In this document: positions 5,985 to 39,361 of the stretch, one piece after another
How the letters are laid out: each line of letters begins with the position of its first letter
Numbering within the stretch: position 1 is the stretch's first letter
DNA from: Deltaproteobacteria bacterium
Lineage (GTDB): Bacteria; Desulfobacterota; Desulfarculia; Adiutricales; Adiutricaceae
DNA length: 39,361 nucleotides
Reading direction: 5' to 3'
Assembly (NCBI GenBank): GCA_031263525.1
Contig: JAISFP010000001.1
Span: forward strand, 1-39,361
Made by a program: the position numbers and the translations under genes
The notes under the pieces: generated by a model
Databases searched by the model: none
What the model was told of the DNA's origin: nothing
Seen by the model: the letters and a program-made list of their open reading frames with translations, nothing else

Positions 5985-5985
5985 A

Positions 5986-10302: not shown

Positions 10303-12945
10303 ATGACCGACGCCCCTTTCGCGGAAATACTCGTTCCAGTGCTGGCCATGCACGCCCTGCACAACAGTCCCGATCCCGCTGCCCTGGAGGGCCACGTCCT
10401 GGGTCTAACGGCCGGGGAGCCGGACGGGACAGGCTGCCCCCCGCAGGACCCCTTCGGGCCCGGCATGGAGGGGGGCGACCCGGGAGGGATGTTCTGCCGG
10501 ATCCTCTGGGCAGTGCGCCGCCTGGAGGACATGGGCCACCTGACCCGCTCGCCCGTCCCCGGGCTCCACGCCATCACCCCCGAGGCCAGGATGGTGCTGG
10601 CCACGGTCCTCCGCATCGCCGGCCCGGAAGGCTCGCTCGTGAGGAGGTACCCGGGCCTGGGCCGCCTCGTCCCCTCCCGGCGTGAGCCGGAACCCTGGGA
10701 GACGACCGGCGGGCTCGGGTCCGGGGACCTGGAGGCCGTGGCCCCCTGGGAGGGGGCAAGCCCACTGACCCATTCCGGGCTAGCCATGCCGCTCATGGCG
10801 GCCGCGCTGGATCTCTCGTGGGACCCTCGGTCCGGGCCCCGCGAGCTCCTGGCCATGGCCCTGAGGCTGGCGGGCGCGGCAAGGCACCTCTCCGGGCTCC
10901 GCCCCCCGGACCCGAGCTGCCCGGATCTTGACCGCGTCTTCGAGGAGACTGCCGGCACGCTGGCCAGTGCCGGGCTCCTGCACCGAGCCGGCAGCGACAC
11001 CGTGCCCTTCAGGATAACCGACGCGGGCAGGCCCGTCGCCCTGGGCCTGGACCCGCTCAGGCGCCTCCTGGCCTGCTCCGCCGCCTGTTCTGGCTTGCGG
11101 CCCGGTTCAGGGCCCACCGGCATGGGCGCGGACGACCTCCTGAACCTGGAGCGGGCCGCCCTCGAGCTCAGGGCCGGGGATCTTGCCCCCATCGCCAGGG
11201 GGATCCTCGCCACCGGCCGCGCAGCCTTCAGGCGGCTCGGGACGGAGGTCTCCGCAGCAGCGGCGGCGCGCGTGCCGGGCCGCAGGTCCCTCATCCCCTT
11301 CCAGGACGTCCGGGCCGGGGACGGCTCCGCAGCCGCGAGGAAAGTCGACGCCCTGCGGGGACGCATGGAGCGCAGGGGCACAGGCTGCTGGGCCCTCCTC
11401 GCGGCGGGGAATCTCCACCCCAAGGTCCAGGACGCCGTTACGGCGGCCTCGCCCAGGTTCAAGGCCGCGGACGAGACCCGCCTGGCGGAGCTCATGTGCG
11501 CGCTGGGATGCGGGGTGACGCCCCTCCCCCGTCTGGAGTTCCGGATGCCGGACCGGGCCTTCTTCGATTCCCTGACCGCCCCCCGCCCGGCCGACACGGG
11601 CCGGAAACGACCGGGGAGGAAGCCGCGGATTGTGGGGAACGGCGTCTGGGAAACCCCCGCCGGACAGATGGTCGACTGCGAATGGCCGCTGGCCTTTTCC
11701 TGGCAGCCGACGCCGGCTGCCTCTGCCGGCGCGACCGGGAACGCCCAGCCGTACCCTGCGGACCAGGCCGGCACGTCCGGTGCCGCCTCGTCGAATCCAG
11801 CGGACCGGGGCGACGCGGCCGGGTCCCCATCGCCGAACTCCCCTGACCAGACCGGCGCTGACCCCGGAGCCAAGCGCCGGAAGGCCATGGCCCGCAAGGA
11901 GACGGCCCCGGAATGGACCCACGCCTCCCTTTTCAGCCATGAGGACGGCACCCGGAAGCCGGCCGACGGTACCGCGGATGCCGGGGCCGACCCCGAAAGC
12001 CCAGCTCCTGCGACATCATCTGCTGAAGACACTGCTTCTGCCTCCGCAGATACCGAATGCCCGGCTCCCGCCTCGGCCTCCTCCCCGGAAGCCGCCGGAA
12101 CCTCGGCAGGCGCCCCCGAAGATGGCACCCCGTCAGCGACCGCCGCCGAAACTTCCCCTGAAATGGCCGCCTCCGGGCCCGGAGCCCAGGAGGCCGCCGC
12201 CGGGAGCGAGGAGAGCGCCGCAGCTCAGGCCCCTGAGGCCGGAGCCCAGGAGGCCGCCGCCGGGAGCGAAGATGGCGCCGCAACTCCGGACCCGAATGCC
12301 GGGTCCCAGAAGGCCGCCGCCGGGAGCGAAGATGGCGCCGCGGCTCCTGACCCGAAGGCAGGGTCCCAGAAGGCCGCCGCCGGGCACGAGGCTCACGACG
12401 ACGATCCTCGCCCGCAGCCCAGGCCCTGCGACAATCCGGAGGAGTTCCTGAGGGAGTGGTCATGCCGCATGGACGAGATTGCGGAAAGGGAGCTTGAGGA
12501 GAACGTCCTCGCGCTCGGGGAGGAGCCGCTCCTTAAGCTGGGCCGCATCATCGCGGACGCGGCCAGGCGGACCTCGCCGGAACTGAGGGTCTCCGGTCTC
12601 GGGGACTGGGGCGTGAGCTTACCGGGCATCTTTCCCGAGACCTGCCCGAACCAGCACGTGCTCCCCGTCAGGGCCAGGGCCTCCGGACTGGCGGAGGCGG
12701 GCGATCTGGAACGCATTGTCCAGGACATGGAGACCGCACGGGTCTCGAGGGCCGTCCTGTTCGCCCCCCTCGGTCTGGACGGCGGGGCTGCGGCCCGCGC
12801 GGAAGCCCTCTCAGGAAGGATCCGCTGCCTGGAAGCGAAGGATACTGCCCGGCTCATGCTGAGGCTCGGGGTGGGCACGAAGGTCTTCCTCTCGGTCGAG
12901 CGCTCCTTGGCGGACATGGACTACCTGGCCGCCCTGGAGGAGTAG
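10303..12945 (+). CDS. Mrr-like protein, fused architecture: wH - wH - class A degenerate Mrr domain - repeat linker - class B degenerate Mrr domain
   Basis: Class A: WALLAAGNLHPKVQDAVTAASPRFKAADETRLAELMCALGCGV..MPDRAFFDSL. Class B at C-terminus: SRAVLFAPLGLDGGAAARAEALSGRIRCLEAKDTARLMLRLGVGT. 20-aa in-frame linker repeats (GAQEAAAGSEDGAATPDPNA). Confidence 0.75.
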   Translation: MTDAPFAEILVPVLAMHALHNSPDPAALEGHVLGLTAGEPDGTGCPPQDPFGPGMEGGDPGGMFCRILWAVRRLEDMGHLTRSPVPGLHAITPEARMVLATVLRIAGPEGSLVRRYPGLGRLVPSRREPEPWETTGGLGSGDLEAVAPWEGASPLTHSGLAMPLMAAALDLSWDPRSGPRELLAMALRLAGAARHLSGLRPPDPSCPDLDRVFEETAGTLASAGLLHRAGSDTVPFRITDAGRPVALGLDPLRRLLACSAACSGLRPGSGPTGMGADDLLNLERAALELRAGDLAPIARGILATGRAAFRRLGTEVSAAAAARVPGRRSLIPFQDVRAGDGSAAARKVDALRGRMERRGTGCWALLAAGNLHPKVQDAVTAASPRFKAADETRLAELMCALGCGVTPLPRLEFRMPDRAFFDSLTAPRPADTGRKRPGRKPRIVGNGVWETPAGQMVDCEWPLAFSWQPTPAASAGATGNAQPYPADQAGTSGAASSNPADRGDAAGSPSPNSPDQTGADPGAKRRKAMARKETAPEWTHASLFSHEDGTRKPADGTADAGADPESPAPATSSAEDTASASADTECPAPASASSPEAAGTSAGAPEDGTPSATAAETSPEMAASGPGAQEAAAGSEESAAAQAPEAGAQEAAAGSEDGAATPDPNAGSQKAAAGSEDGAAAPDPKAGSQKAAAGHEAHDDDPRPQPRPCDNPEEFLREWSCRMDEIAERELEENVLALGEEPLLKLGRIIADAARRTSPELRVSGLGDWGVSLPGIFPETCPNQHVLPVRARASGLAEAGDLERIVQDMETARVSRAVLFAPLGLDGGAAARAEALSGRIRCLEAKDTARLMLRLGVGTKVFLSVERSLADMDYLAALEE

Positions 12946-13355
12946 CGCCCAGCCCCCGCCCGGGCCCGCCTGCGGACGGACGGCCCTGCGGGCGCCCGCC
13001 GTTCATGCGGAAGGCTGGACACGCCACGCCATGCCGCGCCCTGAAACATCAGGCAGGCGGACAGTCCGGGTCGCGCCCTGTTCGCACTCATCTTAGTACA
13101 GCCATGCCATGCCATGACGGGCCGTGAGGTCATGCCCGCCGGACGGCCCTGAAGGGGGCGAACAGTTTACAGAAACGGCGAGATACGCTATATTGAGTTC
13201 AAAAGTGTTGTCCGGCGGACGACCGTCTGCGGCCCGGCCTAATTCCATGCCGCCCGGCCAGGGCTTCCCCTGGTCCCCGGCCCCGGTCCGCCCCCGGCCA
13301 GACCCCAGTCCTTCACCCAGTCCCGTGCCCGTCTCGGCACCCCGTGCGGTTGACC

Positions 13356-14903
13356 ATGCCCCTGCCTCCCGTCGACATCTTCTATCCTGCCGTGCTCGAG
13401 TTCTCTTTCACCTTCAGGACGGTGTCCGTGGACTCGCTCAGGGGTCCCGTGGGCCGGCGGCTGAAGATCTTGGACGGCCAGCCCGACGCCCCGGCCCCTT
13501 CCGGAAACGAGACCGGGATCGACTACTCCATACGCAGGGCCCTGGACGACCTGGAACGGGCAGGGCTCATGGCCCGTACGGATTTCAGGACATTCGAGAT
13601 TACCGAGAAGGGCATGGGCCTGTTCCCGTCCATCACGTATGAGCGGCCCCTCGCCGTCATCCTGAACGAAATCATGGCCGGGAAGGCCGGGGGCAACCCG
13701 CGGACTGCCAGTCCCCGCCCGGAAGAGCGGCGGTTCCCCGCAGGTCCCGCCGCCCGGGACCACAGCGGCCCGCTCTCCGCCGCCGGGTGCCGCCTGCCGG
13801 CGCTCGCGGCCCTGGCCCGCCTCGGCCATGCCTCCTGCACGGACATCAGGACCGAATCGCTGAACATGCTCACGGCCCAGGCAGCGGCCAGCGGCATCAG
13901 GCATTTTGATCCGGACAGCCCGGATCTGCTCGTCAAAATCCGTCAGGCCGTCACGTCCCTGATAAGCTCCGGTCGCGCGGAACGCGTCAGCAGAGGCATA
14001 TACAAAATCACGCCTTTCGGCCTGGAGACCCTCACAAGGCACTTCCCGGATTTCGAGGGCGCCGCCGGGCCGCGCCGGGCCGCGCCGGCACCGCCCGCCA
14101 GAAATCTCGCCTCCCCGAACGATGCCGCCAAGCTCCGCGAAGCGCTCGGCCGCTGGGCGGCGGCTCTCGGCCCGAAAATGAAGGAGGGGCTCGCGGCAGC
14201 CGTCTCCCGCAGGGAGGCGGACTATGACGGACTGAAGAATGGGGCGCCATCCGACGCGGCCCGCGCCTCCCGGCACGAGGCAGGCGCTTCGCAGGACATG
14301 TCCTCCATCGTCCGGCTCCATGAGGAAGCCATGGCGGCGACGACGGAGGCCCGGGCCATCCGGGCCCAGATCGATGCCGAAAATGCAAGGCTTATGGACC
14401 CCATCGCCTTCGGCACGGGCCCCTTCCGGTCGGGAAGTCCCCTCCCCCGCGACCACTACAGCGCCGTCGCGGACGCCGTCAGGGAATACGAGGCCGACGT
14501 CATAGGGACCCTCAAGAGGCTCATCCTGGAGCTGGACCCCGAGAGCTTCGCCAGGCTCGCGGAAGCCGCCGCCCCCGGCATCTGGGAGGGCATGGACCCC
14601 GGAGGCGCCCCGGCCCCCAGCGAGGTGAGGGCCGTCACCGAGTCCGAGGCCCGCGACGGGCTCGACTGGCTCAGGATCTTCGCCATGGACATGCTGTCCA
14701 GATCCGCCGGTCCCTGGGCCCTCTTCATCTCCGGCGAGCTCCCCCCTGAGGCGGCGGAGATCGTCGCAAGGCTCCCCGGCCACGCTAAGGTCGCCGACGC
14801 CTCCCGCATGGCGGCGCTCATGTACCGCTACGGAGTGGGTGTCCGGACGGTCGGCGTCCTTGCGGCGAAGGAGGCCGACCCCAAGGTCTTCGGATGGAGG
14901 TAG
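13356..14903 (+). CDS. Mrr-like protein, wH - wH - class A degenerate Mrr domain
   Basis: wH: IDYSIRRALDDLERAGLMARTDFRTFEITEKGMGLFPSITYE and VTSLISSGRAERVSRGIYKITPFGLETLTRHFPDFE. C-terminus: WALFISGELPPEAAEIVARLPGHAKVADASRMAALMYRYGVGV. Confidence 0.7.
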   Translation: MPLPPVDIFYPAVLEFSFTFRTVSVDSLRGPVGRRLKILDGQPDAPAPSGNETGIDYSIRRALDDLERAGLMARTDFRTFEITEKGMGLFPSITYERPLAVILNEIMAGKAGGNPRTASPRPEERRFPAGPAARDHSGPLSAAGCRLPALAALARLGHASCTDIRTESLNMLTAQAAASGIRHFDPDSPDLLVKIRQAVTSLISSGRAERVSRGIYKITPFGLETLTRHFPDFEGAAGPRRAAPAPPARNLASPNDAAKLREALGRWAAALGPKMKEGLAAAVSRREADYDGLKNGAPSDAARASRHEAGASQDMSSIVRLHEEAMAATTEARAIRAQIDAENARLMDPIAFGTGPFRSGSPLPRDHYSAVADAVREYEADVIGTLKRLILELDPESFARLAEAAAPGIWEGMDPGGAPAPSEVRAVTESEARDGLDWLRIFAMDMLSRSAGPWALFISGELPPEAAEIVARLPGHAKVADASRMAALMYRYGVGVRTVGVLAAKEADPKVFGWR

Positions 14904-15182: not shown

Positions 15183-15367
15183 GTCCCCAACCATGACTCC
15201 AGTTTCATGCCCCGTTAACGGTGGCGTTCCCCCACCGGGCCTGAACCGGAAGCCGACATGCCGCTCCGGCAACCCCATCCCCCGCGACCTGACCGCAGCC
15301 TTTGACAGATTTCCCCCGCCTGCAGCCTCCGCCGCTCACTGCGCAACTACCACCCCAGAAGGACAGC

Positions 15368-16795
15368 ATGCACGTCCCCAGCCTCGAAGCCTTTCTCCTG
15401 CCCGTCCTGATCCTCGTCTGCGAGGGCCAGAGGACGACCGCCAGGATCCTCCGCCGGATGGCCCGCCGCCTGGAGCTGCCCGCCGGCGCCGAAAAATGTG
15501 CGACGCCCGAGCCGGCCCCGCCAGCCGGCGAGGGGGAAGCCAAGCCTCCCGAGACTGACCTGTCCTCCGGTGAGCGAAAAACAACGCCTCCCGAGACGGA
15601 ACAGACCTCGGGGGAGGGTGAAGCAACGTCTCGCGAGACGGACCGTGCCTCCGGGAAGCGGGACGACGCGCCACTCGGGACGGACCAGACCTCTGGGGAG
15701 GGGGAAGCAACGCATCCCGAGACGGACCAGACCTCGGGTGTGGGGGAAGATACGCCTCGCGAGACGGACCAGACCTCGGGGGAGGGGGAAGACGCGCCTC
15801 GCGAGACCGAAAGTGCCGCCGGTGAGTGGAAGGACGTGCCCCGCGAGACGGACCGGGCCGCCGGAGAAGAGAAAGACATTCCTCCCGAAATGCTCCTGGC
15901 GGAGACCAGGATCATGAAGGCGACAAGACACCTCATGGCCGCCAGGTTAATCAAGATGACCAGGAAGGGCAGGCTCCTGGCCACTGACAGGGGCCGCGCG
16001 GCGGTGGCGCTGGGGACGGACCGGATAGACTTCGCGTTCCTGAGGCTCATGCCCGGCTACGAGGAGAGGCTGACCCGCGCCCGCGACCTCAGACTCGCGA
16101 TGGCCACGTCCGCAACTCCCTCCCTGTCCGCCGAGGCCGCACGTGTTGCCGAGGCCCTACGTCCGTCCGAGCCCGCAGGACCCTCCGAGGCCGCAGATCA
16201 GGTCAAGGCCGCAGATCAGGCCGAGGACCAGACACCTGCCGCCCCGCAGCAGGTGCCGCCCCCGCCCCTCCTGAAGAGGGTCGAAGAAGCCTTCAAGTCA
16301 CTGGAGTCGGCCGCCGCAGACGACCTTGCCGAGAAGGTCCGGCGCCTCGTTCCCGAAAGCCTGCACCAGCTCGCCATACGGGTCCTGACCGCCATGTCCC
16401 AGGTCCCCCCGGAGCTCTACACGGACGCGCAGGCCGCCTCCGCAGGCATGGTGCCCACCCTCTTCGGCGAGGAGGCGCTGGAACAGGACTCCACTCTTCT
16501 GGGCCTCAGGTCATTCTCGGACGGCCCGGTGAGCCGCAATGACATGGAGACTCTGGAGGATGAGAGGGAGCGGCGCGGGGCGACAAGGTGCATCATGGTG
16601 TCTACGGCACCGTTTACCCGCGAGGCGACGGAATTCGCTGGAAAAAATCCCCGACGCATCGCCATGGTGGGCCTGAAAGAGCTGGCCCAGCTCATGCTCA
16701 CGTATGACATAGGCGTCATATCCGTCAAACAGCTCGAGCTCAAAGCCGTTGACCACGCGTTCTTCGAGGAGGCCAGAGGCGTCAAGGGAAAGTGA
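15368..16795 (+). CDS. Mrr-like protein, wH split by acidic repeat insertion - class B degenerate Mrr domain
   Basis: SLEAFLLPVLILVCEGQRTTARILRRMARRLELP | repeats (TDQTSGEGEATHPE)n | ETRIMKATRHLMAARLIKMTRKGRLLATDRGRAAVALGTDRIDFAFLRLMPGYEE. C-terminus: CIMVSTAPFTREATEFAGKNPRRIAMVGLKELAQLMLTYDIGVISVKQLELKAVDHAFFEE, close to canonical Mrr C-termini. Start at 15368 (aaggacagcATG). Confidence 0.75.
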   Translation: MHVPSLEAFLLPVLILVCEGQRTTARILRRMARRLELPAGAEKCATPEPAPPAGEGEAKPPETDLSSGERKTTPPETEQTSGEGEATSRETDRASGKRDDAPLGTDQTSGEGEATHPETDQTSGVGEDTPRETDQTSGEGEDAPRETESAAGEWKDVPRETDRAAGEEKDIPPEMLLAETRIMKATRHLMAARLIKMTRKGRLLATDRGRAAVALGTDRIDFAFLRLMPGYEERLTRARDLRLAMATSATPSLSAEAARVAEALRPSEPAGPSEAADQVKAADQAEDQTPAAPQQVPPPPLLKRVEEAFKSLESAAADDLAEKVRRLVPESLHQLAIRVLTAMSQVPPELYTDAQAASAGMVPTLFGEEALEQDSTLLGLRSFSDGPVSRNDMETLEDERERRGATRCIMVSTAPFTREATEFAGKNPRRIAMVGLKELAQLMLTYDIGVISVKQLELKAVDHAFFEEARGVKGK

Positions 16796-23055: not shown

Positions 23056-23086
23056 AACATTTCTCCTTGCTGAAAAAGTTCGCATA

Positions 23087-25068: not shown

Positions 25069-25147
25069 CCACCTTCCTGAACTCTCGATTACAGTCTCTC
25101 TATCTTTCATCGGCCTCAGATATTCTTAATCTTAATATCTTAAACCT

Positions 25148-25304
25148 TTATTACAAGTTCGGTTAAATGTTATAATTCTGGCTATCGTTCCAGGGGTGAG
25201 AAATCAGTGCAAGACCCCAGATCTGGTATCTCTTTGCCATGATTCGCTCCCATAATGTAGGAAAAGATTTCAACATTTTCTAATATTTATCCGGAAGCGT
25301 AATA
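25148..25304. mobile_element. MITE-like element, subfamily A, copy 2 (157 bp, inverted relative to copy 1)
   Basis: ttattacaagttcggttaaatgttataattctggctatcgttccaggggtgagaaatcagtg...ctaatatttatccggaagcgtaata matches the reverse complement of 1984-2140. Confidence 0.85.
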
Positions 25305-26070: not shown

Positions 26071-27444
26071 ATGACTGCCAAGGTACCCTTCCAAGATTTC
26101 CTGCTCCCGGTGCTCACCCTCGCCTCCAGAGAGGAGCAGGTGTCCCAGAAATCCATCAAGAAGCCTCTCCTGGATTTCATGAGGCTCCCGGACGGCTTCG
26201 AGAGGGAGCTCCTGCCCAAAGGCGGGACCGTGCTGTCCTCCCGGATCAGCTGGGCGTTCACCTGGCTCTATCATTCGGGCCTCCTGAAGCGAGTCGCCCT
26301 CGGGAACTACTCCGTCACCGCCGAGGGCCTCCGGGTCCTCTCCCTCGGACTGGAGAGGCTCGACAGGAAGTTCCTTATGCAGTACCCGGGCTTCCGGAAG
26401 GCGTGGACAAAAATCGACACTAGCGACGGCCCTGCCAGGCGGGGCCGCCCTGCAGGAAACGCCCCACCTGCCGGACCTCCCCCGCCTTCCGAGCCGGGCC
26501 CCCGCACCCAGCCACGGGCCGCAACTCTGTCCAGGCCCCCGAAGCCGACCGGCGAGAAGGTCCCCAAGACCCCCTCCCCCCATGGGCCCGGCGGTCAGGA
26601 CGGCGCACGTCCCGTCTCCTCCACCGAGCTCCTGCTCCCGGTCCTGAAGGCAGCGGAAGACCTTAGGGGCCGTGAGGCAGCCAACATCAAGGCTCTCATT
26701 CCCCCGGCCATGGCCTACCTGGCCGAGCACAGGGCGAAGACCGGAGGTCCTCCCCCCGGCACGGCTGACCCGGCTGACCCCGAGCTCATCGAGAGGGTCC
26801 GAAGCGCCTGCTTCCGGCTCGAGTCCGCAGGACTCATGAGGAAGAAGGCCGCGAGCCCCATGGACAGGGTCACGGACGACGGCAGAGCGCTCCTCGCCGA
26901 AAACCGCGAGAGCATCGACTACCAAGTCCTGAAGCGCTACCCCGCCTATAACTGGGCCATGGCCAGGGGGGAAGCCCGCCAGATCCTGGCCGATGCCGAG
27001 GCCGACTCGAGGGACAGGACGGTGTCCGAGATGGCCGGCCTGGTGCTCGGCCTGGGGAGGGAGGGCTTCCGCAGGCTCGGCCGGGAGATAGCCCGCGTCT
27101 CGGGTCCCGGAGCCGGCGGCCCGCCCTTCGGGAGCAGAGAGATGCCCTCCTTCACCATCGACGCGGAGGACGGTGCGGCAGCCGCGGCCAGCCTCGCGAC
27201 CTTCGCCTCCGAAATGGGTGAGGACAGGGCCTGGGTCCTTCTCGCCCGCGGGGACTTCCCCCGCGACACTGACCGACTCCTGCTCAGGCTCACCCCCAGG
27301 GTCAAGGCTACCAACGCAAGAGCGATCGCGGCGATCATGCACGATCTTGGCCTGGGCGTCACCGGCCCTCCTGCCCTGGACGGGCTCTCCGTCCTGGAGC
27401 TGAATAAGCTCTCCCCCGGCTTCTTCAAGAATCTCGGAAGCTGA
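26071..27444 (+). CDS. Mrr-like protein, wH - wH - class A degenerate Mrr domain
   Basis: VPFQDFLLPVLTLASREEQVSQKSIKKPLLDFMRLPDGFERELLPKGGTVLSSRISWAFTWLYHSGLLKRVALGNYSVTAEGLRVLSLGLERLDRKFLMQYPGFRKAW is a clear Mrr_N pattern. C-terminus: WVLLARGDFPRDTDRLLLRLTPRVKATNARAIAAIMHDLGLGV. Confidence 0.8.
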   Translation: MTAKVPFQDFLLPVLTLASREEQVSQKSIKKPLLDFMRLPDGFERELLPKGGTVLSSRISWAFTWLYHSGLLKRVALGNYSVTAEGLRVLSLGLERLDRKFLMQYPGFRKAWTKIDTSDGPARRGRPAGNAPPAGPPPPSEPGPRTQPRAATLSRPPKPTGEKVPKTPSPHGPGGQDGARPVSSTELLLPVLKAAEDLRGREAANIKALIPPAMAYLAEHRAKTGGPPPGTADPADPELIERVRSACFRLESAGLMRKKAASPMDRVTDDGRALLAENRESIDYQVLKRYPAYNWAMARGEARQILADAEADSRDRTVSEMAGLVLGLGREGFRRLGREIARVSGPGAGGPPFGSREMPSFTIDAEDGAAAAASLATFASEMGEDRAWVLLARGDFPRDTDRLLLRLTPRVKATNARAIAAIMHDLGLGVTGPPALDGLSVLELNKLSPGFFKNLGS

Positions 27445-27545: not shown

Positions 27546-27798
27546 ACCTCCCATCCGTCGGTCCGGCCTGGGGCTATGAGGCGACCGCCAGCATCGGGAG
27601 CACCATGCGAAGATTCCCGGCCGACCCATGAGAACCCAAGGAGCACCAGAGAGAGCCCAAGAAATCCAGGCGACCCATGAGTTCCCAAGAGAAATCAAGA
27701 GAACCATTGATTTCCCGGTGAAAACGGCAAGAATCGAAGAACTTCCTAAAAACGCAAAGAGAACTCAGACACATCTCAAAACCCAGGATGCACTCAAA

Positions 27799-29541
27799 AT
27801 GAACATCATCGACAGGCTGCTCCCGCAGCTCATCAGACTCGCAGACTCGGACACGGGCATCTCCCCGGAATCGGCCCTTCAGGAGCTCGGCTCCATGCCG
27901 GGCTTCCTGGAGGAGCCCGCCGGGATCCCCGGAACCGGAGACAGTATCGCGGCCTTGTCCGGAGCCCTCGTCGCGGAGGGTTTCGGCCACCTGGAGGACG
28001 CGGCACTCGTCGGCCTCCTCCCGTCCGGGTTGTACATAACCACCACGAAGGGCCGGGGCCTGGTGAATTTCCTGGACGGCAGGGTGGACCGCAAGTTCCT
28101 GGAAAGTCGCTACCCGGAGTACGTGGCCAACCGGACCAGGCGCGAGGCCGAGAAGGTCCCGGACAACGGCGGGGTGAAGGCTCCTCCCGGCGGCACGGGC
28201 ACCCCCGAGACGGGCACCGGCGCTGCCGATGAGCCGGCCGGCACCGGGTCTCCGGAGCAGTCTCCCCCCGAGTCCGAGACCGGCGATCCATGGGATGCCC
28301 CCTGGCCCCCCCGCCCCGGCTGGCCCTTCAGGCGCGAGGCGATCCTTTCCGGCCTGCCGCTCAGGTCCTCTAGCACGGCGGCGGTCCTTGCAGTCATGGG
28401 GGAAAAGGGCGAGGCCAGCGTGAAAGATGTCCGCAAGGCGGTCTTCGGCCTCCTGCGCGACGCGAGAAGGCCTACTCGCACGAGCAGGAAGAACAGGGAG
28501 ATCGGTCCGTGGCTGAAAGACGACATCTACGACTGCATAAGGGATCTTGCCAGTGCAAACATTCTAGACAATGTCTTCACGGGGACCTACAAGATCACTG
28601 AACCCGGCAAGCTCCTCTTCCGAGAAAGGCGCGAGGAGATCACGCGTGAGTTCCTTCGCTCGATCGACATCAAACCATCGCCTGCCAACCCCCCGAATAG
28701 CGGCACAGAGCTCCCACCCCTTTCGGAGCCGCAGCCGGTGCCAGATCCCTGCGACATAACCTGGGATCCGCCGGCTCCCGAGCCGGAGCCGGAGCCCCGG
28801 CCCGGCGACATGACCGAGGGTCCGACGGCACCCGAGCCGCATCCGCGGCCCGGCAACATAACCGGGGATCCGCCTCTGCCCGAGACGAAGCCGGAGCCCG
28901 GCGACATGCCCGGAGGTCCGCCGCTGCCCAAGCCCCAACCGGGGGCGGACCCAGTCGACATATTCGGGGGTCCGCCGGCTCCCGTGCCGGGGCGGAAGAG
29001 GGGCCCCACCCCGCCGGCCGGCGCCGGGAGCCCCGCTGACGTCATTCGGGAGTACGCGGGGATCCTCAGGGATGACGTCGTCGGGAGGCTCGGCGAGAAA
29101 ATCCTGAAACTCCCCGTGAAGAAGCTGGACGACCTCGCCCGCCGGCTTGCCGAGGCGCTCAGGCTGGCCTCGACCGACCCCGCCAGCCCTCCGGCGGGGA
29201 AATGGGGCGGCCCCGTCAGGGGGCTGTTCGACTCGCCGCTCCCGGGCGAGGACAAGCTCATGATCCGGGTGAAGGCGGGCGCCGTGGCGACCGCCTCCGA
29301 CCTGGAGTCCCTCGTGGCCGACATGAACGGGGCGGACGTCACGCGGGGCGTCCTCTTCGCCCCCCTCGGCCTGGACGGCGGGGCCACGGACCGCCTGGGC
29401 AACTACGCCGGGATCCTGTGCGCCCTGGACGCCGGGCAGATGGCCAGGCTCATGCACGACCACGGCGTGGGCGTGGAGCTCTTCCGGAGGGTCGTCTGCA
29501 GAGTGCCCGACCCCGCCTTCTTCGCCAGGCTGGACGGATAG
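27799..29541 (+). CDS. Mrr-like protein, wH - wH - Pro-rich repeat linker - class B degenerate Mrr domain
   Basis: wH2: DDIYDCIRDLASANILDNVFTGTYKITEPGKLLFRERREEITREFL. C-terminus: WGGPVRGLFDSPLPGEDKLMIRVKAGAVATASDLESLVADMNGADVTRGVLFAPLGLDGGATDRLGNYAGILCALDAGQMARLMHDHGVGV. Start MNIIDRLLPQL preferred over the ORF-track start at 27628. Confidence 0.75.
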   Translation: MNIIDRLLPQLIRLADSDTGISPESALQELGSMPGFLEEPAGIPGTGDSIAALSGALVAEGFGHLEDAALVGLLPSGLYITTTKGRGLVNFLDGRVDRKFLESRYPEYVANRTRREAEKVPDNGGVKAPPGGTGTPETGTGAADEPAGTGSPEQSPPESETGDPWDAPWPPRPGWPFRREAILSGLPLRSSSTAAVLAVMGEKGEASVKDVRKAVFGLLRDARRPTRTSRKNREIGPWLKDDIYDCIRDLASANILDNVFTGTYKITEPGKLLFRERREEITREFLRSIDIKPSPANPPNSGTELPPLSEPQPVPDPCDITWDPPAPEPEPEPRPGDMTEGPTAPEPHPRPGNITGDPPLPETKPEPGDMPGGPPLPKPQPGADPVDIFGGPPAPVPGRKRGPTPPAGAGSPADVIREYAGILRDDVVGRLGEKILKLPVKKLDDLARRLAEALRLASTDPASPPAGKWGGPVRGLFDSPLPGEDKLMIRVKAGAVATASDLESLVADMNGADVTRGVLFAPLGLDGGATDRLGNYAGILCALDAGQMARLMHDHGVGVELFRRVVCRVPDPAFFARLDG

Positions 29542-29584: not shown

Positions 29585-30613
29585 ATGCCCTTTCCCAAAT
29601 ACGAGGATCTCACGCTCCCGGCGCTGAGGTTCCTGGCCGGCGTCCCCTCAGCCTCCCCGGCTGACATGGAGGGGGCGATGGCCGGTCTCTTCCTTCTGTC
29701 GGACGACGACAGGAGGGAGCGTACCTCAAAGAGCCAGCAGCCCAGGCTCGTGGCCAACATCAACTGGGCCTGCAGGTACATGTGGCACGCGGGCCTGCTC
29801 ATTCGCCCGGACCCGGACAGAAAGAGCGTGTACGGGGTCAGCGGCGAAGGCTTGAGAGTTCTGGCACTCGGACTGGACAGGATAGACTTCGAGTTCCTTG
29901 TGCTCTACCCCTCCTTCCGTGAATACATCGCCAAGAGCCGGGAGTCGGCCAAAGCCAGGAAAAAGGCCAAGGATCTGGCGGCGTCAGAGGCGGCAGATGC
30001 AGAAAAGGCAGCCGGGACCAAGAGCGGCACCATACCTGGCGGAACCCCCGCCCCCGAGGCCTCCCGGCCAGGAAGGGACCGGACGGTGCCCGCGCCGCCT
30101 GCGGCAGGCCGGGAAGCGGAAGCGGCGCTGGACGCGGCCGAGGCCTCGCTCCGCGCAGAAGCCGTCCGCGAGCTCGCGGCCCTCGCTGGCGGGCTGGGAC
30201 GCCTTGGCTTCGTCCGGCTTGTGACGGATGCCATGCTCGCCCGTGGCTACAGCCCGGAGGGGTCAGCCGCTCGGGACGACGTTGCCGCCAGTGGCGCGGT
30301 CATGAAGAGCCCGCTCAGGCCCGGGCTCCTGTACGTCCTGGCGCTTCCCGCCTCCGCCGGCCCTTCCTCCGAGAGCTCGGTCCGGGCATTCGAACGGCAG
30401 GCGGCGGCGAGCGGCGCTGCCGACTGGCTTCTGGTCACCGCCTGCACGCTTGGGAAGACGGACGAGGGGACGGGCCGGACGAGGATCATGGACATTTCCG
30501 AGCTGGCCGGGCTCATGCTCGACAGCGGCGTGGGCACCAGGGATCTGGCTGTCCTGGAACTGAAGAAGGAGAAGCGGGGCTTCTTCTCCGGCCTTGGGAG
30601 GCGTCAGAGCTAA
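29585..30613 (+). CDS. Mrr-like protein, single wH - degenerate Mrr domain; least diverged member
   Basis: FPKYEDLTLPALRFLAG...RLVANINWACRYMWHAGLLIRPDPDRKSVYGVSGEGLRVLALGLDRIDFEFLVLYPSFREY. C-terminus: GRLGFVRLVTDAMLARGYSPEG...ASGAVMKSPLRPGLLYVLALPASAGP...DISELAGLMLDSGVGT. Confidence 0.8.
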   Translation: MPFPKYEDLTLPALRFLAGVPSASPADMEGAMAGLFLLSDDDRRERTSKSQQPRLVANINWACRYMWHAGLLIRPDPDRKSVYGVSGEGLRVLALGLDRIDFEFLVLYPSFREYIAKSRESAKARKKAKDLAASEAADAEKAAGTKSGTIPGGTPAPEASRPGRDRTVPAPPAAGREAEAALDAAEASLRAEAVRELAALAGGLGRLGFVRLVTDAMLARGYSPEGSAARDDVAASGAVMKSPLRPGLLYVLALPASAGPSSESSVRAFERQAAASGAADWLLVTACTLGKTDEGTGRTRIMDISELAGLMLDSGVGTRDLAVLELKKEKRGFFSGLGRRQS

Positions 30614-31568
30614 AAGACACACGCCGCCAGGGCACCGGTTCTCACGAACTTGGATCTTCATGGCCCCCATGGCCCGAAGGCTCCCGGCCATCTGGGCCTC
30701 AGGCATCCAGGCTTCCGGCCCCATGGACACTGGCCTTCGGAGCCGCTGTCCTCCTGGCCTTCCTGGCGACCGCGGCCCCGCCTCCCCTCCGGACTGTCTC
30801 ACGGCTCTCCGATGGATTATCTTATTGAAGAAATAAATGTTTAATCAAAGGTACTGTCCATATGATAATATTGAAATAGTTTCATTCATTAAATTTACAC
30901 ACATCTGTAATTTCTCTTGCTATGCTTGCCATGTCATATCATCTTAATTTATCACTTAAATAATATTTTTTTAATAATTGCTAAATCACTAAGAATTATA
31001 AACATATTTGACTTAATATATTATACAGATAATATAGACATACCATCAATAATATTGTCCTACACACATTCAGCGCTGAACAGACACTTCAAATACGATG
31101 CCAATTAATTCAAATTGCCGTGTCTGTCAGGCGGCACGACCGAAATTGTCATGTTTTCTAACGCGAAATGTCTGTCTCTGACCGCCTCCGCAGCCGTCTG
31201 ACCCTCTCTCCGGCTGATTCTCCCTCCGCTCCGAATTGTCCGCAGCGTCAGGGCTCAGCGGCTCCGGAGGGTCCGGGGTGCAGGGTGAACGATGCCGGAA
31301 GTCCCCGCCAGGGCTGGGCCTGCCCGTGCCGCAGCCGCACCGCAGTTTTCCGGAACGGACATCCCGGCTTTCCGGCTCTCGGGCGGAACCTGACCAGCGT
31401 CCAACGCCAAAATTTGCAAACCTCAAGTGAATCGGCTATAAACTCTCAAAACGGCAACGCCGCTCCCCCCCCCCCTCCAGCCCAGACCCCGGCACGTCCT
31501 CCTGCCAGACGCCGTGCCTCGCCCCGCCGACACGCGGGCTCCCTTTTCGGTGCCCGGCGGAAGGATCC

Positions 31569-32849
31569 ATGTCCAACGTCCCCTTCAACAAGTTCCTGCA
31601 GCCCGTGCTGAAGCTGGCCGGAGAGTCGGATCGGATCACCTGCGAGACCGCAAAGGCTCCCGTCATGAGGCTCCTGGAACTCCCTCCCGAGTTCGCGGAG
31701 GAGCGCACCCCTTCCGGCAGCATCACGAAAATATCGAACAGGATCTCGTGGGCGTTCACCTACCTGAAGGCCGCCGGGCTGCTGGACCGGGTCGCCAGGG
31801 GGACCTACTCCATTACAGAGGAGGGCCGCAGCGTCCTGGACATGGGGCCCAGGATTCTGGACCGGGAGTTCCTCCTCCGCTACCCAAGCTTCAGGGAGTT
31901 CCTCCTCAGGAGCCGGGCGAGCTCCCGAAGCGGGGGCGCTCCCTCGCCGTCCGGCGCCGTGGACTCCGCCCCCACGTACCTGAGGACCACCCTGCTCTCG
32001 GAGATAGCCGAGGAGACCGCCCCTCCCGTACGCGGCGAGGGGAAGCCCGGCACGGGAGGGTTCTCCTCCGGAGAGCTGCTGCTCCCCGTACTGAAGGCCC
32101 TGGAGACGCTGGGCGAGGCGACCCTCGAGTCCGTCATGGCCTCCGCCCTCGAGCTTCTCTCCGCCCGAAGGGAGCTCTCGGGAGGGGACCCGCCGGATCC
32201 CGCCCACCCGAGGGCAGCCGAGAGGTTCGAGACCTCCGCCTACTACCTCAGGGTGGCGGGATATCTCAGAAGAAACGACAGGGGCCTGTACTCGGTGACC
32301 GAGGAGGGCCGCGAGACCCTGGCCAGGGACTTGGACGAGCTCAGGCTGACCGACCTCGGCGACTCCCCCTCCTACCGGGCGGTCCGCATCGTCGCGGAAG
32401 AGAAGAAACGGGTGGACGCGGCCTACGAGGAGCTCATGGAACAGAGCCACTCCGAGACCGTAGCCAGGCTCAGGACCATGAAGAAGGACGGGTTCAAGGC
32501 CCTGGCCCGCAGGATCGCCTGCGGCCTCGCCGTCCGGAACGGCGAGCCGGAGGCCGGCGCGACCTTCAGGGTCCTGGCCGCCGAGGACAGCCACTGGGAG
32601 GCCGAGGACATCGAGAGCTTCGCCGGGCACATGAAGACCAGAAGAGACGGAGAGTGGACCCTCTTCACCAGAGGCGAGCTCTGCCCCAAGTACCAGGCCA
32701 TCGTCCGCAGCCTCCCCATGAACGTGAAGATCTGCGACGAGTCCGCCGCCGCGGCGCTCATGTTCGAGCTCGGGGTCGGCGTAACGGTCCGGAAGACCTG
32801 GAAGATCAGGGCGATCGACCAGAAATACTTCGACATCATCACCATCTAG
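31569..32849 (+). CDS. Mrr-like protein, wH - wH - class A degenerate Mrr domain
   Basis: VPFNKFLQPVLKLAGESDRITCETAKAPVMRLLELPPEFAEERTPSGSITKISNRISWAFTYLKAAGLLDRVARGTYSITEEGRSVLDMGPRILDREFLLRYPSFREFLL. C-terminus: WTLFTRGELCPKYQAIVRSLPMNVKICDESAAAALMFELGVGVTVRKTWKIRAIDQKYFD. Confidence 0.85.
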   Translation: MSNVPFNKFLQPVLKLAGESDRITCETAKAPVMRLLELPPEFAEERTPSGSITKISNRISWAFTYLKAAGLLDRVARGTYSITEEGRSVLDMGPRILDREFLLRYPSFREFLLRSRASSRSGGAPSPSGAVDSAPTYLRTTLLSEIAEETAPPVRGEGKPGTGGFSSGELLLPVLKALETLGEATLESVMASALELLSARRELSGGDPPDPAHPRAAERFETSAYYLRVAGYLRRNDRGLYSVTEEGRETLARDLDELRLTDLGDSPSYRAVRIVAEEKKRVDAAYEELMEQSHSETVARLRTMKKDGFKALARRIACGLAVRNGEPEAGATFRVLAAEDSHWEAEDIESFAGHMKTRRDGEWTLFTRGELCPKYQAIVRSLPMNVKICDESAAAALMFELGVGVTVRKTWKIRAIDQKYFDIITI

Positions 32850-32887
32850 CCGCAGGCAGCGTAGCTGCCCCGGCATGAAGATCCCTC

Positions 32888-35029
32888 ATGAGCATCCCCC
32901 CGCCTGACGACTTCCTGCTTCCCGTCCTAAAGCTCTCCGGCGAGGCGTTCGGGACCTCCATTGGCTCCGTCCTGAAGGCGGTTCCGGATCTCATGGGCCT
33001 CTCCCCCGCCGAGATGGAGGCCCAGGCCCGCGGCAGGGACAGGACCGTCGTCGAGGGCCACGTGGGCGAGGCCTTCACCGTCCTGGAGGCGGCAGGCCTG
33101 GTTGACCGCCTCGAGAACGGGATCTTCAGCGCCACCGAAAACGGCCACGACGTCCTCTCGCTGGAGACGCGCTGGCTGGCCAGGGGCTTCCTGGAGAGCC
33201 TGCCCTCATTCGAAGACAACCTCGAACGGATTCGGGAGAGGAGACGGCAGAGGAGACACCGGAGGACCCTCGCCGGACCGGCTGCGGACCTGCCCCCCGG
33301 ACCGGGGGAGGCCCCGGCGCCGGAACATCCCTCCGGATCGCCCGGCCCCGCCCGGCCGGCGGTCCCGCCCCCCTCCGGCGAAGCGACGACCGAAGGCCCC
33401 GGAGGCCGGTCCGGCGCGCCTTCCGTCACGACCCCCGGTGCCGGGGCGGGGACTGTGGCACCTCCCGCAGAACCCGGAACTCCGCCCGGCCCGCCGGAGC
33501 GGCACCCCGGATGGCCTTTCTCCCGCGAGAAGGCCGCCAGGGGCCTCGTCCCGAATCCGTCCGCGATCAGGGCCGGGGTCCTCGCGATCCTGGGAGAGTC
33601 GAACAAGTTCGTCCACAAGGACAAGGTCTGCAGGCGCGTCACCGAACTCTACCGCGAGGCCATGCGGCCCGCGCGGAAGAGAATCTCCGAGCCGGACAGG
33701 GCGAATCTCGAGAAAAGGACCGGCAGGGCCCTGAGCGACCTCTGCGGGACGGGCCTTCTTGAGCACCCGTCCAAGACCATGATCAGGGGGCGCCCGTCCA
33801 AGACCACGATCAAGGGAAAGTACGGAATCAGCGCCGCCGGGAGAAAGCTCTTCTCCGAGAGCCCGACCGAGATCAGCAACTCCTTTCTGAGGAAGCTCCA
33901 GGCCGATCGGCTGGCCCCCGGCACGCCAGCCCGTTCCACCGCCGCACGACCGTCCTGGTCCCTGCTGCAAGACCTTGAGGACCTGCTCAAGGCCCACCCG
34001 CCAACCTCTCCACACCCGCCGGTGCCGGAGGTGAAGCCCCGGGGCCCGGAGGTTCCGACCGCACCTGTTCCCCCGCCCGTAGGTCCGGCCCCCTCCGGCG
34101 GAAAGCCGGTGCCTGCTCCCGCCCCGCCCGCAGGTCCGGCCCCCTCCGGCGAAGAGCCGGGGACCGCTACTGCTCCGCCCGAAGGTCCGGCCCCCTCCGT
34201 CGGGCAGCCGGTGCCTGCTCCCGCCCCGCCCGCAGGTCCGGCCCCCTCCGGCGCACAGCCGGGGACCGCTACTGCTCCACCCGCAGATCCGGCCCCCTCC
34301 GGCGCACGGCCGGGGACCGCTACTGCCCCTCCCGCAGGTCCGGCCCCCTCCGGCGGGCAGCCTGGGACCGTTCCCGCCCCGCCCGCAGGGCCGGCCTCCG
34401 TGCTGGATCTGCCGGGAACTGCGGCCCCCCCGCCTGACGAACCGGCCCCGTGGCCCCCGTCCCTGGAGCCGCCGCAGACGTCTTACGGCCCGGATGCCAG
34501 CCCCGCCGACAGGCTTCTCAGGTCCATCCAAAAAATCGAGAACGCCCACAAGGCCGTGTTCCGGGACAAGATCTTCCGGCTCCGGAAGAACGGTCTCCGC
34601 GATCTCGGACTCCAGCTCGCGGAAGCGGTCCGCAAGGCTTCGGAGAAGGACTTCCCGGACGACGCCGGGAAATGGGGCGGCAGGGTCAGGGGACTCTTCG
34701 ACGAGGAGGACCCCGGCGCGGACGGGATCATCGTCCGCGCGAGGCCCTTCCAGGACGGGCCCGCCGGCCCGTCCGAGATGGAAGCGCTCGACGAGGAAAT
34801 GACGGCCGCCGGCATCCGGAGAGGGATCATCTTCGCCGCGGCCGGCTTCACGACCGAGGCCCTGGCCTGCGGCCCCGCCCTTTCCGGAAGAATCCGGGCC
34901 ATGGACGCGGAAGCCACGGCTGAACTCATGTACAGGCACGGCGAGGGCACCGTCGCCGACCTGGAGGTCGAGTACAAGGTCCCCGACAGGACCTTCCTGG
35001 ACAGCCTCGACGCCGGCTGGGAAAGCTGA
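32888..35029 (+). CDS. Mrr-like protein, wH - wH - Pro-rich repeat linker - class B degenerate Mrr domain
   Basis: DDFLLPVLKLSGEAFGTSIGSVLKAVPDLMGLSPAEMEAQ...VGEAFTVLEAAGLVDRLENGIFSATENGHDVLSLETRWLARGFLESLPSFEDNL. C-terminus: WGGRVRGLFDEEDPGADGIIVRARPFQDGPAGPSEMEALDEEMTAAGIRRGIIFAAAGFTTEALA...MDAEATAELMYRHGEGT. Confidence 0.8.
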   Translation: MSIPPPDDFLLPVLKLSGEAFGTSIGSVLKAVPDLMGLSPAEMEAQARGRDRTVVEGHVGEAFTVLEAAGLVDRLENGIFSATENGHDVLSLETRWLARGFLESLPSFEDNLERIRERRRQRRHRRTLAGPAADLPPGPGEAPAPEHPSGSPGPARPAVPPPSGEATTEGPGGRSGAPSVTTPGAGAGTVAPPAEPGTPPGPPERHPGWPFSREKAARGLVPNPSAIRAGVLAILGESNKFVHKDKVCRRVTELYREAMRPARKRISEPDRANLEKRTGRALSDLCGTGLLEHPSKTMIRGRPSKTTIKGKYGISAAGRKLFSESPTEISNSFLRKLQADRLAPGTPARSTAARPSWSLLQDLEDLLKAHPPTSPHPPVPEVKPRGPEVPTAPVPPPVGPAPSGGKPVPAPAPPAGPAPSGEEPGTATAPPEGPAPSVGQPVPAPAPPAGPAPSGAQPGTATAPPADPAPSGARPGTATAPPAGPAPSGGQPGTVPAPPAGPASVLDLPGTAAPPPDEPAPWPPSLEPPQTSYGPDASPADRLLRSIQKIENAHKAVFRDKIFRLRKNGLRDLGLQLAEAVRKASEKDFPDDAGKWGGRVRGLFDEEDPGADGIIVRARPFQDGPAGPSEMEALDEEMTAAGIRRGIIFAAAGFTTEALACGPALSGRIRAMDAEATAELMYRHGEGTVADLEVEYKVPDRTFLDSLDAGWES

Positions 35030-35056
35030 CGGGGGCCGAGCCCTGCGGGAGAAGAC

Positions 35057-36247
35057 ATGAAACAGATTTCGGTGTACGATTTCATGCACCCCATCATGAC
35101 CCTGGCAGGCAAGGCCGGGCGGGTCTCCCCGGACACCCTCGAGGACCCGGTCATCCAGATCATGGAGCTGCCCCGGAGGCTCAAGAAGAAGATGGTCCCC
35201 TCCGGCCGCTTCTCCGTCATCGGCGCGAGCCTCTACGGGGCCTGCCACTTCCTCTCGGTCCTGGGCTTCCTGGACCCCGTCCAGGGAGGGTCCTACTCGG
35301 TATCCTCCCGTGGCCGCGACTATCTCAACTCCGAGCTCCAGGCCATTGACGAGGTGCTCCTCTCGCACCTATGCAATTTTAAGGTGGCGAGGGAGAGCCT
35401 GAAGGCCCTGCGTCTGTGGGATGAACCCGGTGCCGCCGCCGGGGAAGACAGGCGCGTGAAGGCCGCCGAGGCGGGCGAGCTTCACGCCGACGAGCTCCTG
35501 CTCCCGATCCTCCAGGTCACGAACGGGCTGGGGACGGCCACCCTCGAGTCCCTGGAGGGCCAGGTCATGAAGATAGTGGCGGACCGGAGGAGGGCTGCCG
35601 GCGGCTACTCGCCGGTTCTCCCCTCCGCGACCGTCGCGGGCATGCTCGCTGCCGCCTCCGAAAGCCTGAAGGCCGCCGGCCTCCTGAGGGGGCCGGCCGA
35701 CGGCCCTTTCCGGGTGACCGCCGAGGGACTGAAGCTCCTGGCCGGGGACCCAGCCGGGCTGGAACTGTCCGATCTGGAGTCCTACCCCACCTACCGTGCC
35801 AGGGAGATCGTTTCCGCCGAGACGGTGAAGCTCCAGGCGGCCTGCCATGACCTGAACGCCGACTCCGCAAGAAAGGCGGCGGAGCTCATCCGCAGGATGC
35901 GGCGGAAGGATCTCGACCGCCTGGCCAGGGACCTTTCCCGGGCCCTCGCCGCGGCCAGGGAGCCTGGTGGAGGAGCCTGCGCCGTCCTGGACGCCGCGGA
36001 CAGCCCGGAAGAGCTGGCGCGGCTCGGGAGCCTGACCGCCGCCGGCGCCGGCGGCGGGCTTCTGCTCGTACGGGGGAAGCTCCCCCCCGAACTCGCTGCG
36101 CTCATGCGCCAGCTCCCGCCCGGCACCACGATCGTCGACGAGGACTCCGCGGCCAGGCTCATGCTCCGGCACCGCGTGGGGACCGTCCGGAGCATCGCCA
36201 TAGTAAGGACGTTCGACGCTGACGCCTTCGACGCGTTCCTGGACTAG
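35057..36247 (+). CDS. Mrr-like protein, wH - wH - class A degenerate Mrr domain
   Basis: SVYDFMHPIMTLAGKAGRVSPDTLEDPVIQIMELPRRLKKKMVPSGRFSVIGASLYGACHFLSVLGFLDPVQGGSYSVSSRGRDYL. C-terminus: GLLLVRGKLPPELAALMRQLPPGTTIVDEDSAARLMLRHRVGT. Confidence 0.8.
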   Translation: MKQISVYDFMHPIMTLAGKAGRVSPDTLEDPVIQIMELPRRLKKKMVPSGRFSVIGASLYGACHFLSVLGFLDPVQGGSYSVSSRGRDYLNSELQAIDEVLLSHLCNFKVARESLKALRLWDEPGAAAGEDRRVKAAEAGELHADELLLPILQVTNGLGTATLESLEGQVMKIVADRRRAAGGYSPVLPSATVAGMLAAASESLKAAGLLRGPADGPFRVTAEGLKLLAGDPAGLELSDLESYPTYRAREIVSAETVKLQAACHDLNADSARKAAELIRRMRRKDLDRLARDLSRALAAAREPGGGACAVLDAADSPEELARLGSLTAAGAGGGLLLVRGKLPPELAALMRQLPPGTTIVDEDSAARLMLRHRVGTVRSIAIVRTFDADAFDAFLD

Positions 36248-36306
36248 GCCACCCGCCCCGGCACGGGGCGGCCGTCCTCGGCGGGTTCCCCGCCGGGGAC
36301 GGGAAC

Positions 36307-37485
36307 TTGCAAGGGAAAGCCAGCATGATCCCCAAAGTAGACGACTTCCTGCTCCCTGTCCTGCGGCTCTCCTCGGAGGGGGCCGGCACCTCGCTCAGGG
36401 CAGCGGCGGACTGCCTGCCGGGCGTCATGGAGTCCAAGTTCTCCGCGAGGGAGCTCGCCCGTGCCGGCGAGCGCATCGGGAGCGCCTTCAAGAGCCTGGA
36501 GGCGGCGGGCCTGGTCGAGCGTACGGGGTCCAGCCTCCGCCTCTTCGTCGCCACGGACAAGGGCCGCAAGGTCGTGAGGCTCCGCCCGGGATGGCTCGTC
36601 ATGAAGTTTCTCGAGAGCTTCCCGTCCTACCGGGAGAACTTCGCGCGGATCGAGGAGCAGTGGGAGCCCCTGCCGGAACAGGACGGGGAGACCCGGGGAA
36701 CCGGCGGGTCGGGCAAGCCTCCGGTTGCCGGCGGTCAGAAGGAGCCCAGCGGAACCGGTGGGACGGGGGAACCCGCGGTTGCCGGCGGTCAGAAGGAGCC
36801 CCGCGGAACCGATGGGACGGGGGAGCCCGCGGCTGCCGACGGTCAGAAGGAGCCCAGCGGAACCGGCGGGACGGGCAAGCCCGCAGTTGCCGGCGGTCAG
36901 AAGGAGCCCAGCGAAACCGGTGGGACGGGGGAGCACGGGACCGACGAGCCGGGTAAGGACGCGGGTGCCGGAGGGCCGGACGGACACGCCCCCGCACCCG
37001 CCGGGGAGAGCGGCACACGGGAGCCTGTCAAGGAAACCCCCGCAAGGGAGAGGCGAGCCGAGGCCCTGGTCAACATCAAGAATGCCGTCACCGGGGCTAT
37101 CGAGCACAGTCTCCGCCAGCTCGGCCAGGAGGCTCTGGGCACCCTCGCGAGGCAGCTCTTCGAGAAGCCGACCCCCGACCCCTCGCGTGACCCCGTGCCC
37201 CAGGACCAGAGGTTCCTGACAGTGGGCGTGAAGGCCTTCTCTGACGGGCCCGCCGAGCCAAACGACCTGGAGACCCTTGTCCCGGGGACCGGGGGACGCG
37301 TCTTCGTCGCCCCTGCCGGCTTCACTCAGGAAGCCCTGGACTACTCCAAGGGCCTCCGCATCAACACGTTCGGCGCTGACTTCGTAGCGCGTTTCATGTT
37401 CGACAACTCCAGATTCGTGAAGAACGTCGCCACCTTCGAGATCTTCACCCCCGACCCCGCCTACTTCGGCGAGGACCCTGACTAA
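36307..37485 (+). CDS. Mrr-like protein, wH - Gly-rich repeat linker - class B degenerate Mrr domain
   Basis: KVDDFLLPVLRLSSEGAGTSLRAAADCLPGVMESKFSARE...IGSAFKSLEAAGLVERTGSSLRLFVATDKGRKVVRLRPGWLVMKFLESFPSYRENFARI. C-terminus: RFLTVGVKAFSDGPAEPNDLETL...GRVFVAPAGFTQEALDYS...FGADFVARFMFDNSRFVKNVATFEIFTPDPAYFGE. 18-aa repeats. Confidence 0.8.
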   Translation: MQGKASMIPKVDDFLLPVLRLSSEGAGTSLRAAADCLPGVMESKFSARELARAGERIGSAFKSLEAAGLVERTGSSLRLFVATDKGRKVVRLRPGWLVMKFLESFPSYRENFARIEEQWEPLPEQDGETRGTGGSGKPPVAGGQKEPSGTGGTGEPAVAGGQKEPRGTDGTGEPAAADGQKEPSGTGGTGKPAVAGGQKEPSETGGTGEHGTDEPGKDAGAGGPDGHAPAPAGESGTREPVKETPARERRAEALVNIKNAVTGAIEHSLRQLGQEALGTLARQLFEKPTPDPSRDPVPQDQRFLTVGVKAFSDGPAEPNDLETLVPGTGGRVFVAPAGFTQEALDYSKGLRINTFGADFVARFMFDNSRFVKNVATFEIFTPDPAYFGEDPD

Positions 37486-38854: not shown

Positions 38855-39243
38855 GGAGATTCCTTTCTGAGGAGAGGTGATGTGGCCGGAAGGGCAGAAA
38901 ACGTCGCGAGTGGACGTTTTCAGCCTTCGAAAGGGTCTCGTGAAGCACTTCTTCCGAGAGATTACGAACAAGCGGTCTTGATAGATCGGGGCTTCCAGCC
39001 AATACATTCTTGGGCCGCCCCCCCGGCATGCATTAACGGTAAGACCAGATTTGGTTCATGATAAAGATGGCGTGATGCGACATGGCAACATCTTAGGCAG
39101 ATGGTGCCGGCAAACTTTGGCTACCATAAAGGTTCCGTGTGGCGACCGGCATAACAAGCGGCCAGGCGGCTACGTTTGGCCCGAATGTCTACAGGGCTTA
39201 AAGCGGCAAATTCTACGAAAGGAAGTGACCGTCAAGGCGAACA

Positions 39244-39361
39244 AATATTACCCGTTTAATTAAATGTCGGAATTTTGGCTGTCAGCCTATGGGTGGAAAG
39301 ACTGGGAAACAGCCCAGCCCTGCTATCTCCTCGTCATGGTTCGCTCAAAAACGTGGAAGAA
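39244..39361. mobile_element. MITE-like element, subfamily B, copy 2 (runs off the window end)
   Basis: AATATTACCCGTTTAATTAAATGTCGGAATTTTGGCTGTCAGCCTATGGG.. matches the reverse complement of 9623-9773. Confidence 0.9.

Follow-up and report, generated by a model that had tools for sequence, protein, structure and literature searches.

Degenerate Mrr-type restriction enzyme paralogs form a gene array in one genus of Adiutricaceae

The locus described here raises the question of what a row of genes related to the type IV restriction enzyme Mrr may do if none of its nuclease-like domains can cut DNA. The window analysed (39,361 nt) is the whole of contig G000:C295 from a Deltaproteobacteria bacterium MAG (6.68 Mb, 74% complete). 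It contains 11 closely spaced array ORFs on the + strand between positions 7279 and 37485, labelled by their start coordinates (e.g., 29585 for 29585-30613). Ten of these carry a total of 11 Mrr-fold C-terminal domains, all of them apparently dead (Table 1). The preliminary description had given ten such domains, which is the number of ORFs that carry them; 10303 has two and 7279 none. Codon-position GC content (~0.70/0.55/0.84) indicates that the + strand array frames are coding, while the long antisense frames lack such a pattern. The domains were assigned to class A (13344, 26071, 31569, 35057 and the extra internal domain of 10303) or class B, with 29585 as an outlier.

Table 1. Array ORFs of the window and their counterparts in G005 and on G000:C223. 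Domains listed as inactive are predicted to be so from the residues at the catalytic positions; E/D/Q/K denotes these positions.
Feature	Position	Strand	Content	Ortholog or second copy
7279	7279..9420	+	Mrr_N-like winged-helix N-terminus, Pro-rich repeat linker, no nuclease-like domain	ortholog G005:C383:5083-6321
10303	10303..12945	+	two inactive Mrr-fold domains: A-type 11146-11574, B-type 12493-12939 (E/D/Q/K to L/P/P/R)	ortholog G005:C383:6501-8936 (pair at 100/100 in tree)
13344	13344..14903	+	Mrr_N (6e-11), inactive class A domain, hairpin deleted	ortholog G005:C383:9544-11040
15302	15302..16795	+	inactive class B domain; E/D/Q/K to H/P/G/R	ortholog G005:C383:11311-12498 (has DVK)
26071	26071..27444	+	two winged-helix units, inactive class A domain 27043-27432	
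27628	27628..29541	+	winged-helix unit(s), inactive class B domain 29089-29538; D to R (GGPVRGLF), QxK to RVK or MIR by gap placement	
29585	29585..30613	+	Mrr_N (5e-11), divergent inactive domain 30182-30598; D to S, QxK to LxL	
31569	31569..32849	+	two winged-helix units (Mrr_N 1e-28), inactive class A domain 32550-32834	second copy G000:C223:18416-19792 (45% identical)
32888	32888..35029	+	winged-helix unit(s), Pro/Ala-rich 51-nt repeat linker, inactive class B domain 34565-35011	second copy G000:C223:16088-18223
32888 ex-hairpin	34688..34744	+	R78 at catalytic-D codon 34688-34690; R94 (34736-34738) and R96 (34742-34744) at Q and K codons	
35057	35057..36247	+	Mrr_N (5e-10), inactive class A domain 35990-36205	second copy G000:C223:14222-16039
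36307	36307..37485	+	winged-helix-like N-terminus (N part of PADLOC mREase_IV, 2e-4), inactive class B domain 37099-37479; hairpin deleted, GVK kept	second copy G000:C223:11951-14191

Several array proteins contain linkers encoded by in-frame tandem repeats, located at 7700-8650 (75 nt), 12119-12418 (60 nt), 15458-15877 (42 nt), 34022-34500 (51 nt) and 36687-36956 (54 nt). The array is broken, relative to that of sister species G005, by a region of lower GC content (17286-26000, ~40-56%), which includes an AAA-ATPase_like/PDDEXK_9 gene (17286-19331, -) and a TonB receptor gene (20974-23229, -). A functional tie between the array and the ATPase gene was considered and dropped: the family has 121 copies in G000 (153 in G001), so its closeness to the array is uninformative. 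The window also contains an IS66 transposase remnant (3807-4487, -) within 3539-6886, between inverted arms (3539-4030 and 6396-6886, 80% complementary), a 54-nt inverted repeat pair (9721-9774 and 39243-39296, 94% complementary) with one arm at the contig end, and a tandem repeat at 279-542 with ~9-11 units of 22 nt (CCCCTTCATCCATGGACATGG-like).

The Pfam Mrr_N domain (PF14338) scored above the cut-off in 13344, 26071, 29585, 31569, 32888 and 35057, and more weakly in 15302 and 27628; Pfam did not find it in 7279, 10303 or 36307. Mrr_cat (PF04471) exceeded the cut-off only in 15302, the best match in the window (3.7e-6, profile positions 39-115), and was weak in 32888 and 29585 (E = 0.095 for the latter). 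When a profile of intact Mrr proteins was compared with the dead-domain profiles using hhalign, E-values of 2.8e-23 (class B) and 3.3e-19 (class A) were obtained, so homology of the C-terminal domains to the Mrr nuclease fold, as judged from sequence, is secure and not a product of chance. NA-iREase1 (PF22722) gave no significant match, with only 15302 detected (E = 0.1, below the curated cut-off), and a search of PDB sequences with the dead-domain profile returned nothing significant.

The catalytic positions were compared in an alignment of seven intact Mrr proteins from relatives and 31 array domains; the residue-by-residue check covered the array copies other than those of G002 on C44, C96 and C672. 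The catalytic motif of EcoKMrr-type enzymes is (D/E)..(D/E/Q)xK (PMC3874153). The intact proteins do not vary at the helix-A glutamate, at the GIDG aspartate or at QxK, and all seven score E/D/D/Q/K in the shared alignment. Among 19 Mrr_cat-type domains of relatives, 18 show a D...xK signature that can be recognised by eye. None of the 11 window domains has the motif. Their D column is occupied by P, R, R, S or P, or is deleted, with no D or E in any domain, and the Q column by M, G, R, L, P, A or F, with no D, E or Q. The helix-A glutamate is replaced in every domain (by D in 27628 and 35057), and the five class A domains lack the active-site hairpin. The catalytic lysine survives in 36307, and also in 27628 if a 2-residue gap is placed after K.

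These results agree with most of what the preliminary description had read from the window. In 29585-30613 it aligned ...DDVAASGAVMKSPLRPGLLYVLALPA with the intact signature (SKDGGIDGIITEDALGLDSIYLQAKRY in intact Mrr), so that S stands for the catalytic D and LxL for QxK; 29585 is the most divergent copy, with the longest branch in the tree, and its column assignments are therefore the least secure. Arginine at the D position was likewise recovered in 32888-35029 (GGRVRGLF...IIVRARPF) and in 27628-29541 (GGPVRGLF...LMIRVKAG), the start previously given for the latter (27799) being an internal ATG. The reported absence of the hairpin segment from class A was borne out for every member. Of QxK, Q is gone everywhere, and K is kept in 36307 and arguably in 27628. 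The central claim, that the Mrr-like domains of the window are catalytically dead throughout, is well supported as a prediction: no copy keeps the catalytic D, Q or helix-A E, and all seven intact controls do. Loss of the cutting site with apparent retention of the PD-(D/E)XK fold, the iREase-type pattern, was found in all window copies.

Several observations indicate that the domains have nonetheless been under constraint. In a neutral simulation that was rough (12 pairs, 11 dead and one live, alignable segments only, tuned to third-position divergence), amino acid identity fell to 0.15-0.23, compared to 0.33-0.51 in the actual dead pairs, and 1.2-2.8 stops were expected per dead pair with 0 seen; no stops occur in any array ORF. 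The NG86 estimates of dN/dS, which are dS-limited, lay at 0.53-0.92 among dead pairs, and the live pairs gave 0.35 and 0.48. As these ratios are high and dS is probably biased by GC3, the constraint is best described as real, though loose. In the live proteins no segment is better conserved than the hairpin (76%); in the dead ones it is the least conserved (12-14%), and the highest values are those of the C-terminal helix and tail (23-30%). Judged from these values, constraint has shifted away from the active-site hairpin and towards these C-terminal elements.

An AlphaFold2 model of the 32888 domain (pLDDT 83; input limited to window and L056 sequences) retains helix A, the QxK strand (residues 91-96, IIVRAR), helix B and two more strands plus helices, with the first strands of the hairpin reduced to isolated bridges. 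A Foldseek search with this model gave weak matches to the Rpb5 N-terminal domain (top), MspJI, AspBHI and EcoT38I (best E = 2e-3, TM ≤0.45), which may serve as leads and not as proof. The 31569 model (pTM 0.44) yielded no useful match in a fold search of this type.

A search of G000 with the dead-domain profile identified 17 domains: the 11 of the window, four on C223 and two on C63. The C223 block repeats the gene order 31569-32888-35057-36307. No intact full-length Mrr was found in this 74% complete MAG; a 1645-aa ORF on C79 gave one further Mrr_cat match, which is partial. Within the order, arrays are limited to one genus, where they occur in G000 and in three of the five sampled sister species (G001, G002 and G005). 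Contig C383 of G005 (for this genome, JAISEQ010000211.1 is a contig of Deltaproteobacteria bacterium isolate Gx485_bin203) is collinear with G000 C63 and the window: orthologs of 7279, 10303, 13344, 15302 and 27628 are followed, as the final gene, by an intact Mrr with DGGIDGIITEDALGLDSIYLQAKRY. G002 has array fragments and one intact Mrr, no intact Mrr was found in array-bearing G001, and in G003 and G014 an intact Mrr occurs on its own. Loss in every copy, as stated before, therefore holds for the window and fails for the locus family, because sister species retain a single intact Mrr, either next to the array or in its place.

Intact and dead genes also share neighbours. An outer-membrane gene (79% identical) is convergent with both the intact Mrr of G002 (C643) and the dead block on G000:C223, and a sigma-54 regulator gene (73-85% identical) is divergent from the dead array in G001 and likewise from the intact Mrr in G003. 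In G004, which has neither array nor intact Mrr, these two genes are neighbours, ~2.6 kb apart. The idea of one fixed insertion site for all arrays, examined with these two flanking genes, holds only in part: in G000 and G002 the regulator gene lies elsewhere, abutting a response regulator gene, with no array there, which argues for shared addresses and not for one fixed locus. Solitary degenerate Mrr genes were observed in other genera of the family, namely in G006, G007 and G009 (L055:4500-5519, L032:814-1815 and L018:1039-1929); their catalytic residues are lost (in G006, D to R and QxK to RxV), with flanking motifs such as DPLGLES kept. G001 also encodes a 1403-aa protein (L054:2170-6378) consisting of a string of winged-helix repeats, each after a PGWPF motif, with a dead domain at the end; the same motif is present in 27628 and 32888.

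In the tree, support was 84/88 for class A, 97/95 for class B without 29585 and 95/95 for the intact group, and orthologs paired across species. The dead domains together with the intact Mrr of the family split from the Mrr of other orders at 100/100, and descent of all dead domains from the genus' own Mrr was not rejected (p-AU 0.128). The two clades with their outlier and the between-species ortholog pairs suggest that inactivation mostly predates species divergence. As the copies appear to descend from dead ancestors, two or three early loss events with amplification afterwards are most likely. Decay is less advanced in some orthologs: those of 10303 and 27628 have E in the D column, and that of 15302 in G005 has DVK, which argues for stepwise decay. 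This history bears on the earlier argument that loss in all copies implies selection: it is weaker than it looks, since copies of already dead ancestors are not independent losses. The proposed selected, non-cleaving role nevertheless gains support from the collinear orthologs in a sister species, the lack of stops and the above-neutral identity.

We consider it reasonably probable that the array proteins are Mrr paralogs that have been retained, bind DNA through winged helices and do not cleave it. A typical protein would comprise at least one Mrr_N winged-helix domain, joined through a low-complexity linker to an Mrr-type PD-(D/E)XK fold without the catalytic E, D and Q. Given their family assignment, the winged helices would bind DNA; winged-helix domains fused to nucleases can read methylated adenine (PMC11037411). 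The ex-nuclease fold may bind sibling array proteins or partners, and in 32888 the arginines at all three catalytic positions could grip the DNA backbone without metal. The proteins would then act by occupancy and assembly, in sensing, regulation or competition, with no cutting. A role as sensors or decoys has been suggested for inactive REase domains (PMC12839542). Partnership with an intact Mrr is suggested by G005, although the data do not require it. The dead paralogs might be subunits or modulators that hetero-oligomerise with Mrr via the shared fold and either direct it to additional DNA marks or hold it back, a reading we hold tentatively: an intact Mrr closes the G005 array and coexists with array fragments in G002, intact genes and arrays adjoin the same neighbours across genomes, and the C-terminal part of the fold is the portion preserved, but G003 has an intact Mrr without an array, and G000 and G001 have arrays without a detected Mrr (here MAG gaps at contig ends broken within arrays could be the explanation). 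A further reading, which seems unlikely, is that a dozen dead paralogs with winged-helix specificities of their own constitute a combinatorial reader array that recruits or licenses a single intact Mrr such as that of G005; one cutter would thereby gain many recognition subunits.

That the family has left defence, its members now being transcription factors or DNA-binding proteins of a chromatin-like kind that assemble through the ex-nuclease fold, is somewhat doubtful. Proteins with several winged-helix units, such as the 1403-aa protein of G001, and the top weak fold match to Rpb5 would suit this, as would a resemblance between the winged helix and Sso10a chromatin proteins (E = 8.5e-4); the latter is far below the match cut-off and is also given by intact Mrr, and no regulated gene or operator was identified. 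Decoys absorbing phage-encoded inhibitors of Mrr, an idea put forward for inactive REase domains beside active nucleases in BREX-related systems (PMC12839542), would fit the diverse paralogs adjoining the intact Mrr of G005; they are improbable here, as decoys are expected to stay close to their target, and the class A hairpin deletion and an identity of only 12-30% to the live domain would spoil active-site mimicry. It is more improbable still that the array is a functionless amplification in decay: the lost catalytic residues, low identity, repetitive linkers and high dN/dS could be read in this way, but stop-free ORFs, collinear G005 orthologs, identity well above neutral, a consistent coding GC pattern and tight same-strand spacing all argue against it. 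We find it hardly credible that some copies still cut by means of relocated residues. The lysine of 36307, and perhaps of 27628, and the DVK and glutamate of the less-decayed orthologs are what this reading can draw on, against the absence, in every window copy, of an acid from the D column and of an acid or Q from the Q column, the loss of the helix-A glutamate and the missing class A hairpins.

The non-cleaving paralogs proposed here can be set beside several known systems. EcoKMrr-type proteins (Mrr_N PF14338 plus Mrr_cat PF04471) share the winged-helix N-terminus and a C-terminal fold with an LM..GVG...D..FF tail, whereas the array proteins have lost (D/E)..(D/E/Q)xK and have extra winged-helix units, long repeat linkers and many copies in an array. 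MspJI and AspBHI, which gave weak structural matches, share the Mrr_cat nuclease fold, but are modification-dependent, catalytically active and equipped with an SRA-like reader domain. The N-terminal domain of Rpb5, a eukaryotic RNA polymerase II subunit, has a restriction-enzyme-like fold without catalysis; it is similar to the array domains in fold only and has no winged helix. The iREase domains of conflict systems (NA-iREase1 PF22722, BrxHII, BREX-related helicases; PMC12839542) likewise combine a degenerate PD-(D/E)XK fold with nucleic-acid-binding or active nuclease partners. Those domains come fused to NTPases or helicases or are encoded alongside them, whereas here they belong to winged-helix proteins of a paralog array with no evident NTPase partner. 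An intact Mrr is adjacent to the array in G005, and none was found in G000.

No earlier report of such an array was found in the open-access literature, and the array is a fresh variation on the known theme of inactive REases. It also calls for caution in annotation: the PADLOC type IV restriction model (mREase_IV) matches the window proteins, so array proteins could be miscounted as active defences. Inactive nuclease folds have been known singly, inside larger defence proteins; here they form an ordered, species-spanning array beside or replacing the intact enzyme, a natural set of cases in which to study the role of a restriction fold after cutting stops.
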